DNA of 32,768 bases from Candidatus Pacearchaeota archaeon (lineage in GTDB: Archaea; Nanobdellota; Nanobdellia; Pacearchaeales; GW2011-AR1): NCBI GenBank assembly GCA_018304105.1, contig JAGVWX010000001.1, forward strand, positions 1 through 32,768. The letters run 5' to 3'. The notes beneath the pieces are model-generated. The model made no database searches and had not been told where the DNA came from. It saw nothing but the letters and a program-made list of their open reading frames with translations. Below, piece by piece: positions 149 through 2,250 of this stretch (the first letter of the stretch is position 1; every line of letters starts with the position of its first letter). The position numbers and the translations under genes were made by a program.

Positions 149-466
149 TCATTTCTTTTCAAATTTCCTTACAGCGTCTTCGATAACTCTCAATGGCTCA
201 TCCGGATCAAAATTTATATTCTTCATACTCTTTTCGTATCTCTCCAGATTTTCTAAAAATAATTTTATTTCCTTTTCAGTCGGTCTTTCAGAAAATTCTC
301 CGATTTTCTTGTTTTGCAAAACAAGGCAATTATAAAATTGTTCATACTGATTTCTAATAGGTATCATAAAAATTGGTTTTTTCAGGTAAATTGCTTCAGA
401 CACCACCGAAAATCCCGAGTTTGAAATTATTGCCTTACAATTTCCAAGGTCTTCAGCAAACTTCCA
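149..466 (-). pseudogene. C-terminal part of frameshifted MurG/GT28-like glycosyltransferase
   Basis: This frame continues the glycosyltransferase encoded upstream at 427-1128. Read from about 466 downward it gives a stretch with SNSGFSVVSEAIYLKKPIF, the usual C-terminal nucleotide-sugar binding segment of MurG-like GT-B enzymes (a Gly-rich turn, then a Ser/Glu helix). The N-terminal part leaves this frame near 462-468. Restoring one A in the GGAAG at that site would give an uninterrupted VYGKFAEDL junction. So this is the second half of one gene separated by a one-base loss, either a real pseudogene or an assembly/sequencing error. It ends at a TGA at 149-151, directly beside the GC-rich region at the window edge. 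Confidence 0.75.
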
Positions 467-1128
467 TAAACAACAAAGTTTTCATCAAGTCTATCTAAAA
501 TTTTAAGTATATAATCATGAGACTTTGCTAAATACACGACAATGAAATCTTCCTTTCGCGGCTTCAATTCCCGAATGGATGTCCTTATTACTGGCGAAGT
601 ATATGTGACGCCGCCCTTATTGAAAGTTTTATCAGAAAAAGAGATAGCTATCCGTCTTTGCGCTCGAGGCGTAATGGCCCGAGTAACCGCCTTGGCAATA
701 AGCGCCGAACTTTTTTTCGAGAACGGTTTTTTGACATCTGAGAATACAAAAGTATTCAACGCACTAAACGAAATCAATGGAATATTTTTCAAATATGCCG
801 TTTGGGCAACAATCGGTTCATTATCGCTTATACAAATCTCTGGTTTGAAGTCTTCAATGACTTTTTTGATTTCTCCCATATGCAAAAAATTTTTCGGGAA
901 ATCAAGCATATTAGAATAAATAGTTTTAAGGCGATTGACCTTCCCTTCTTCATACGAAATAAGCAGACCCCTAATAGGATAAACATCAAAATCCTTCAAG
1001 AACGAAATTCCCTTCCCATATGTAAACACCTTAATTGTATGCCCCATCCTTTCTAAAAAGGGTATTACTTCTGAAGCGATTGATGCATGCCCCATTCCTT
1101 CTCCGCAAACGCCATAAAGTATTCGCAT
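427..1128 (-). CDS. MurG/GT28-like glycosyltransferase, N-terminal part, frameshifted
   Basis: The product resembles GT-B glycosyltransferases of the MurG/GT28-like type found in archaea, which move a sugar from a nucleotide donor to a lipid or glycan acceptor at the cytoplasmic face. The N-terminal Gly-rich acceptor-domain loop GVCGEGMGHAS is visible just after MRILY. The ATG at 1128 is preferred over an in-frame TTG at 1146, because a TTTAAA box at 1152-1157 sits about 26 nt upstream, as expected for a leaderless archaeal start. The reading frame breaks near 465: the last ten or so codons (after VVYGS) do not fit the family, and the expected C-terminal domain continues in another frame down to 149. 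Function is inferred from fold-level resemblance only. Confidence 0.72.
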   Translation of the reverse strand: MRILYGVCGEGMGHASIASEVIPFLERMGHTIKVFTYGKGISFLKDFDVYPIRGLLISYEEGKVNRLKTIYSNMLDFPKNFLHMGEIKKVIEDFKPEICISDNEPIVAQTAYLKNIPLISFSALNTFVFSDVKKPFSKKSSALIAKAVTRAITPRAQRRIAISFSDKTFNKGGVTYTSPVIRTSIRELKPRKEDFIVVYLAKSHDYILKILDRLDENFVVYGSLLKTLEIVRQ

Positions 1129-1151
1129 ATATTTTAGATGAAACAATAAGG

Positions 1152-1185: not shown

Positions 1186-1210
1186 GCGCTGGTAGTACAG
1201 TGGTTAGTAC
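1186..1210 (+). other. tRNA 5'-fragment (positions 1-25), probable remnant
   Basis: The 25 nt read as acceptor strand GCGCTGG, linker TA, D-stem GTAC, an 8-nt D-loop AGTGGTTA, and D-stem GTAC. This matches tRNA positions 1-25 exactly and then stops: the next bases (CAACAAAGG) do not form an anticodon arm. It resembles the 5' part of the intact tRNA-Gly at 2078-2149 but differs at many positions. Its acceptor strand pairs imperfectly with that gene's 3' strand (a T-C mismatch at 5-68 and a G-T wobble at 7-66). It lies directly upstream of the endonuclease gene and is probably a displaced half left by an insertion. Confidence 0.6.
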
Positions 1211-1220
1211 CAACAAAGGT

Positions 1221-1227
1221 TTTATAT
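1221..1227 (+). promoter_or_regulatory. TATA-like box of the LAGLIDADG gene
   Basis: TTTATAT is centred about 26 nt before the ATG at 1250. It also overlaps the alternative ATG at 1226, which makes 1250 the more likely start. Confidence 0.5.
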
Positions 1228-1249
1228 GTTTAATTTGGCATCAATAGAC

Positions 1250-2101
1250 ATGGTCAGTTTTATTAGACTAAAAGATGAAGACAGAAAGAGTATGTTCAGT
1301 TCAATTAAGAAGAATCTGGGCACTTCTTGGGAAGAAGTTTACCCAAGATTTAACACTAGCAGAACAATGTTCTTTAATTATATGTCTGGAAGATATGACA
1401 TACCAAAGGAAACATTTATTGCCTTAACAAAAATTGCCCAATCTAAGATTACTAACCTTGAAGAAGTTCAGAAGACCAAACATTTAGAAAAAGAAATTCT
1501 AAAACCACAAATGAGCAATTCTCTCGCAGAAATTTTTGGAGTTTTGAATGGAGATGGTCACATAAATAAATTAAATCATGAAATTTGTGTTGTTGGAAGC
1601 GTTTTGGAAAGGGATTATTTTGATTATTTAAAACATCTTTTCGAAGGTAGCCTCCATTTATCATTTTCAATTCAACCACAAAACACAAAATTAAAATTAA
1701 GGGCATACTCAAAACAGTTGGCAGACATTCTTCATGAGGATTTCGGGCTGCCCAAGGGAAACAAGCTTGGAAAATTGAATGTTCCAAAACAGGTCTTACT
1801 TAAAAAAGCGTTGCTCAAATCTTACGTTCGAGGACTTTTTGATACAGACGGAAGCGTTTATCTTAGAAGAAATAAAGACCAAGTGGTAAATATTTCAAGT
1901 GCAGATAAAATGTATTTAATGCAAATAAAAGAAGCTTTAAATTCGTTGGGGGTTAATTCTTCCATTAGCAAGAAGAACATCTATGTGTATAAAAAACAAG
2001 ATGTAGATAAATTCTTTAAAATAATCAAGCCAGCAAATTCTAAACACTTAAAAAGGTATGAGAAATTTAATACACTTGCGCGGATGGTCTATCGGTTATG
2101 A
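1250..2101 (+). CDS. LAGLIDADG homing endonuclease with N-terminal HTH-like domain
   Basis: A 283-residue protein with two LAGLIDADG-type motifs, EIFGVLNGDGHI (about residues 94-105, acidic D102) and YVRGLFDTDGSV (about 192-203, acidic D200). This is the two-repeat form that can act as a monomer to cut a long DNA target. The first 70 residues look like a small helix-turn-helix region (TSWEEVYPRFNTSRTMF). The start at 1250 is preferred because of the TATA-like box at 1221-1227; an in-frame ATG at 1226 would add eight residues. The gene lies between a tRNA 5' fragment (1186-1210) and an intact tRNA-Gly, and its last codons, LARMVYRL and TGA, run into the first 24 nt of the tRNA. Both catalytic acidic residues are kept, so it may be active. 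The target is inferred to be a tRNA-Gly gene. Confidence 0.88.
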   Translation: MVSFIRLKDEDRKSMFSSIKKNLGTSWEEVYPRFNTSRTMFFNYMSGRYDIPKETFIALTKIAQSKITNLEEVQKTKHLEKEILKPQMSNSLAEIFGVLNGDGHINKLNHEICVVGSVLERDYFDYLKHLFEGSLHLSFSIQPQNTKLKLRAYSKQLADILHEDFGLPKGNKLGKLNVPKQVLLKKALLKSYVRGLFDTDGSVYLRRNKDQVVNISSADKMYLMQIKEALNSLGVNSSISKKNIYVYKKQDVDKFFKIIKPANSKHLKRYEKFNTLARMVYRL

Positions 2102-2149
2102 TTTCTGCCTTCCAAGCAGATGAGCCGGGTTCGACTCCCGGTCCGCGCA
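2078..2149 (+). tRNA. tRNA-Gly (anticodon UCC)
   Basis: The 72 nt fold as a complete cloverleaf. The acceptor stem is GCGCGGA/TCCGCGC with seven perfect pairs and discriminator A. The anticodon stem is TCTGC/GCAGA around the loop CTTCCAA, with anticodon TCC at 2111-2113. The T-arm is CCGGG/CCCGG with loop TTCGACT. No CCA is encoded. The D-stem is weak (G10-U25 wobble and a U13-U22 mismatch). No intron is needed to form it. The first 24 nt are also the 3' end of the LAGLIDADG ORF, so the tRNA must be released from any read-through transcript by normal 5' processing or have its own promoter inside that ORF. Confidence 0.93.
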
Positions 2150-2150
2150 T

Positions 2151-2250
2151 TTACCGAATCAAAGATTCAATGCGGCAGGGCTTGCCCTCGTTTGACCAAG
2201 ATTGGGCGAACGAGCGAGGATTCTATCTGAGCCGGCCTGCGCATTTTGCA
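2151..2250. other. GC-rich structured intergenic region, possible ncRNA
   Basis: Between tRNA-Gly and secF is a GC-rich patch in an AT-rich context. TGCG (2171-2174) plus CAGG (2176-2179) pair with CCTG (2236-2239) plus CGCA (2240-2243), leaving one bulged G. Inside, CTCGTT (2187-2192) pairs with AACGAG (2209-2214). A small GAATC/GATTC hairpin lies at 2156-2168. No open frame or T-arm is seen. It may be a small structured RNA, a tRNA 3' trailer element, or a hairpin-type repeat. Strand is uncertain. Confidence 0.4.

Follow-up and report, generated by a model that had tools for sequence, protein, structure and literature searches.

A probable mobile LAGLIDADG endonuclease unit carrying a replacement tRNA 5' half at tRNA-Gly(UCC) of a Pacearchaeota archaeon

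Results

The window analysed here is a stretch of 32,768 nucleotides (contig JAGVWX010000001.1, positions 1 to 32,768) from a draft genome of a Candidatus Pacearchaeota archaeon (GCA_018304105.1; G000; about 1.06 Mb, 23 contigs), in which a gene for a predicted LAGLIDADG endonuclease lies between a fragment of a tRNA gene and an intact tRNA-Gly(UCC) gene, all on the plus strand. The intact gene is the single tRNA of the window and was located at 2077-2150 by ARAGORN, as tRNA-Gly(TCC), and at 2078-2149 by Infernal (59.8 bits), with its anticodon at 2111-2113. The open reading frame (ORF) of the endonuclease, 1226-2101, stops inside it, at a TGA (2099-2101) that corresponds to tRNA positions 22-24, in the D-arm. 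On the other side of the gene, the fragment GCGCTGGTAGTACAGTGGTTAGTAC at 1186-1210 is identical at 24 of 25 nucleotides to positions 1-25 of the tRNA-Gly(GCC) of the same genome (C22:37803). When compared with a library of 5' halves taken from tRNAs at other loci, it scored 46 (z 10.5); 40 dinucleotide shuffles gave a mean of 20.9 and a maximum of 30, and the reverse strand of the region scored only 20. These data bear out an earlier note on this DNA, made from the letters alone, which had identified the fragment as positions 1-25 of a tRNA-Gly and the intact tRNA as the source of the endonuclease stop codon.

The fragment and the 5' half of the intact tRNA (2078-2102) showed no recognisable similarity by direct alignment (p = 0.31), which indicates that they are not recent duplicates of each other. 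The draft genome has one intact gene each for the glycine tRNAs GCC, CCC and TCC; the UCC gene is thus single-copy there, and the tRNA in which the reading frame ends is very probably the functional copy. Archaeal split tRNAs broken in the D-arm region have been described (PMC4090602), and the fragment might in principle be half of a trans-spliced tRNA-Gly unconnected with the endonuclease. We regard this as extremely improbable, given that all three glycine tRNAs are intact and that, among the relatives described below, fragments adjoin endonuclease genes for many different tRNA types.

The earlier note had also observed that the intact tRNA has the better acceptor stem and the fragment the better D-stem; a hybrid of the fragment and 2103-2149 has an acceptor mismatch (5-68) but a better predicted D-stem. 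Such a hybrid would be the product of a giant tRNA intron, with the fragment as 5' exon, 2103-2149 as 3' exon and everything between them, including the second 5' half, spliced out; apart from the folding prediction, this would agree with the known archaeal tRNA introns at position 25/26 (PMC4090602). Against it, the acceptor stem of the contiguous tRNA is perfect, its Infernal score is that given above, and its counterpart stands alone in two relatives, G003 and G008. In addition, the identical layout is also found in bacteria, which to our knowledge have no tRNA splicing endonuclease, and we therefore consider splicing of a giant intron very unlikely. An endonuclease encoded within a tRNA intron was rejected as well, because the downstream tRNA is complete on its own, as it is in G003 and G008.

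The endonuclease is encoded by a free-standing ORF of 283-291 amino acids, depending on the start codon. The ATG at 1250 (coding sequence 1250-2101) is a more likely start than that at 1226, because it gives the N-terminus MVSFIRLKD, which can be aligned with the MPIFIKLKD at which the nearest relatives begin, and because the TATA-like element TTTTATAT lies 30 nt upstream. The product matched the Pfam family LAGLIDADG_3 (3.1e-14) and contains two LAGLIDADG motifs, LAEIFGVLNGDG (1523-1558) and LLKSYVRGLFDTDG (1811-1852), whose acidic residues (GDG and DTDG, respectively) are invariant in alignments of relatives. A predicted structural model (mean pLDDT 90.9) matched endonucleases encoded in inteins or introns, among them I-Tsp061I and I-DmoI, with an N-terminal helical domain in addition to the LAGLIDADG fold. 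Motifs, acidic residues and modelled fold together assign the protein to the LAGLIDADG homing endonucleases, and it would be expected to cleave the empty allele site-specifically. An intein was discarded as an explanation since the ORF does not lie within a host protein ORF.

Three putative promoters accompany these features. A TATA-like TTTAAAA (1152-1158) precedes the fragment and aligns in register with the promoters of the uninterrupted tRNA-Gly genes of G003, G008 and G004, which places the fragment at the position of the native tRNA 5' end. The probable endonuclease promoter, TTTTATAT (1220-1227), follows the fragment at the same position as in archaeal relatives. Lastly, the intact tRNA is separated from the native promoter, and a probable promoter of its own, TTAAAAA (2048-2054; -30 to -24 from the tRNA), lies within the C-terminal codons of the endonuclease. 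TATA-like sites at -36 to -24 were present in 29 of 54 endonuclease-linked tRNAs (about 10 in shuffles), where they are encoded within the endonuclease C-terminus, and were equally common before other tRNAs (77 of 151; about 28 in shuffles). In this regard, the window and archaeal relatives share a conserved protein motif, NxKHLKK, coded as CAYTTAAAAAR near the position of the tRNA promoter, and from its sequence this stretch may serve both the protein motif and the promoter.

Relatives of the endonuclease were retrieved by means of a conserved-motif pattern and share ancestry among themselves, so that the counts below are not a census and the statistics are indicative, with p-values that overstate independence. 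The 101 distinct relatives include members from Pacearchaeota, Woesearchaeota, Nanoarchaeota, Diapherotrites, Patescibacteria, Omnitrophota and others. Of these relatives, 80 have their end within or next to a tRNA gene on the same strand, 3 end in an antisense tRNA, 3 lie in long ORFs, and no tRNA was found for the remaining 15. In 53 of the 80, the end of the reading frame falls among the initial 25 nt of the tRNA. Among weak viral relatives, none of 49 abuts a tRNA. When upstream regions were compared with the 5'-half library introduced above, 25 of 76 scored above all 40 shuffles in the sense orientation, compared with 2 of 76 on the reverse strand (about 1.9 expected). Direct alignment of the upstream region with its own downstream tRNA reached p 0.05 in just 14 of 72 cases, which is a poor test because carried and native halves differ, and it was replaced by the library. 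In archaea, 26 of 53 best fragment matches ended 28-48 nt before the ATG, where about 7 were expected; where a fragment can be recognised, some 35 nt usually separate its end from the start codon, and a TATA-like element comes immediately after the fragment. In five bacterial loci (L146, L152, L167, L192 and L200), a tRNA-Ser 5' fragment (GGAGRNATG) even contains the start codon of the endonuclease and, judging from its sequence, could double as ribosome binding site and start. Additionally, an inverted D-arm-like element, CCACTRGACATG or similar, was observed 5' of the endonuclease promoter in L141, L155, L145 and L196; it is possibly an operator or an inverted fossil.

The window genome contains further cases. 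On its contig C13 (L207, about 206-1062, minus strand), a fragment, GGGCTTATAGTTTAGTGGATAGA, is followed by an endonuclease gene and an intact tRNA-Arg(TCG) on the same strand; another endonuclease gene runs into tRNA-Glu(CTC), with a fragment that is at best decayed, and a mirrored case occurs at tRNA-Met, whose 3' half appears to have been replaced. A mirror-image layout, in which the endonuclease gene reads antisense to the tRNA and enters its 3' half, was found in L012 (760-1575), L067, L059 and L142; in the first two, the antisense endonuclease gene is preceded by a tRNA 3' fragment.

A subset of the archaeal members is linked to introns in the D-arm. A second pair of empty and occupied sites comes from two genomes of one genus: in G035 a cupin gene, an intronless tRNA-Gln(TTG) and rpsO follow each other, whereas in G047 the cupin gene is followed by a fragment, the endonuclease gene, a tRNA-Gln with a D-arm intron and rpsO. 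The G047 intron begins at the point where the fragment breaks off, and its fold contains a bulge of 3 nt and a helix of 4 bp. Counted by one fixed rule, D-arm bulge-helix-bulge introns were present in 11 of 52 endonuclease-linked archaeal tRNAs, compared with 3 of 187 others (Fisher p 4e-6), and one of these three, L266, has a 25-residue relic of an endonuclease C-terminus upstream. In L161 the fragment is identical to the carried half over 25 nt and the intron follows the carried half, an arrangement that would fit protection of the gene by the intron alone. Two other loci, L272 (G045) and L274 (G040), have a tRNA-Gln with a D-arm intron and no endonuclease detected alongside, and could be scars like L266.

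The earlier note had proposed comparing the tRNA-Gly(UCC) locus in related genomes. In most of the family, and in draft genomes that are mostly metagenome-assembled, as in our other comparisons, tRNA-Gly(TCC) lies shortly upstream of secF with no endonuclease gene. The fragment, which would represent the native half GCGCTGGTAGTAC, resembles the ordinary tRNA-Gly(TCC) 5' half of endonuclease-free relatives such as G018, G007 and G004, and the 5' half of the intact tRNA is unlike those typical of the family, except for G003 and G008. The D-arm type of this half, GGTCTAWCGGYTATGA, was found with no mismatch in endonuclease-linked tRNAs of L044, L127, L130, L056 and L061 and otherwise only in G003 and G008 (L130 is listed as unlinked in the D-arm-type tally, but only owing to an ORF extension that runs beyond the tRNA). 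We found no genome with the fragment and no endonuclease, nor an intact tRNA with the fragment as its 5' end, either of which the earlier note had named as evidence against its reading; the GCC tRNA elsewhere in the genome has a near-identical 5' half.

Two observations made around these genes are recorded here. Several tRNA genes of the genus have partial copies of tRNA ends next to them (window 2150-2240; L116 100-280; L002 1655-1840; L209 100-230). Upstream of the locus, a glycosyltransferase gene (149-1146, minus strand) is split over two frames, with ORFs of 239 and 85 amino acids compared with 353 in G003 and 349 in G008, which reflects either a frameshift or an assembly error.

Discussion

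All these data make it likely that the gene in the window belongs to a mobile unit in which a homing endonuclease directed at the D-arm of tRNA genes is combined with a replacement 5' half. The endonuclease would cut an empty tRNA gene within the D-arm, and repair from an occupied copy would bring in the endonuclease gene together with the replacement half, leaving the native 5' half as a fossil at its old promoter. The gene would then be transcribed from its own TATA box just past the fossil, and its last codons would contain both the promoter from which the rebuilt tRNA is read and the 5' end of that tRNA. Recutting could be avoided by a divergent D-arm sequence, as proposed for the window, or by a D-arm intron that interrupts the target, as in other archaeal members. 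In the window genome the 3' half was probably co-converted too, because the whole tRNA nearly matches the copy in G003 and G008.

The core of what the earlier note had suggested, a D-arm insertion with a carried 5' half, is thus upheld by the empty sites and by dozens of further cases, with a probable 3' co-conversion and a loss or partial conversion in G003 and G008 to be added to it. The locus belongs to a recurrent class whose orientation can be reversed, with the 3' half replaced. Furthermore, the contrast that it drew with tRNA introns applies to the window tRNA, which has no intron, but not to the subset of archaeal members that carry a half plus a D-arm intron.

Several points weigh against this interpretation. 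The tRNA-Gly(TCC) 5' half of G003 and G008 is identical to the replacement half at 25 of 25 positions, and these genomes, which have the same upstream neighbour as the window genome, contain neither endonuclease nor fragment. Consequently, a loss, a partial conversion or an older origin of the new half is needed; their state would be explained if the unit had once been present and was later lost, or if only the carried half had been transferred by conversion. In addition, about two thirds of the tRNA-linked relatives have no fragment that scores above the shuffles, whether decayed or absent, and the interdependence of the relatives, noted above, applies to all the statistics.

In a scenario with an older origin, the ancestor shared by G000, G003 and G008 would already have had the replacement-type half, and the endonuclease would have arrived later in G000 together with a foreign fragment, inserting at the very start of the tRNA. 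Besides the half shared by G003 and G008, the close match of the fragment to the tRNA-Gly(GCC) of its own genome means that it could derive from that gene, and it is well preserved for a fossil that would predate the species split (a neighbouring protein is only 68.5% identical between G000 and either G003 or G008, and 71.2% between these two). Nevertheless, this scenario requires the insertion to have hit tRNA position 1 exactly while keeping the native promoter in register, where other members break in the D-arm; the fragment is typical of the tRNA-Gly(TCC) of the family, and the D-arm type of the three genomes is seen elsewhere only with endonuclease copies. We therefore judge a later insertion next to an already native half to be unlikely and favour homing with a carried half.

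On a broader scale, we lean towards the view that these loci represent an undescribed and widespread class of tRNA-gene homing in DPANN archaea and several bacterial phyla, each member with its own replacement half. The archaeal members would deliver D-arm introns, and cycles of invasion and loss would generate non-canonical introns and swap tRNA halves. We found no prior report of homing with a replacement half in tRNA genes in the open-licence literature. If true, parts of essential tRNAs would have been supplied by selfish genes in two domains of life, with consequences for tRNA evolution and gene annotation. The finding also bears on the origin of non-canonical archaeal tRNA introns. Randau and Soll proposed that introns shield tRNA genes from invading elements (cited in PMC4090602), and this idea becomes directly testable because D-arm introns coincide here with an endonuclease that apparently inserts in the D-arm, an empty and an occupied allele exist in one genus, and one relic stage is available.

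The unit resembles several known systems in part. Archaeal bulge-helix-bulge tRNA introns include non-canonical positions 20/21, 22/23 and 25/26 (PMC4090602), and share with it the location in the D-arm and, in a subset of the endonuclease-linked tRNAs, the splice motif; unlike the case of such introns, the endonuclease lies outside the tRNA and the window tRNA has no intron. The protein has the two-motif fold of its closest solved relatives, I-Tsp061I, I-DmoI and the TliVMA intein, but differs from archaeal intron and intein LAGLIDADG enzymes in being encoded by a free-standing gene with its own promoter and an added N-terminal helical domain. Integrative elements that enter tRNA genes repair them with sequence from the attachment site, so that, as proposed here, a tRNA is broken and then rebuilt from carried sequence; in our loci, in contrast, no integrase is seen, a single endonuclease gene is present and it is usually the 5' and not the 3' part that is rebuilt. 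The closest described case is that of mitochondrial mobile ORFs with a replacement C-terminus, which carry a new gene end in Allomyces atp6 and in Glomus atp6, atp9, cox2 and nad3 and leave behind a fossil of the native C-terminus, which is closer to relatives than the imported end is (PMC3630166). The units described here would share with them an endonuclease inserted in an essential gene, an imported functional end and a fossilised native end, but the mitochondrial ORFs affect the C-termini of protein genes in fungi, whereas the units described here affect tRNA genes, mostly their 5' half, in archaea and bacteria, and sometimes bring a D-arm intron.
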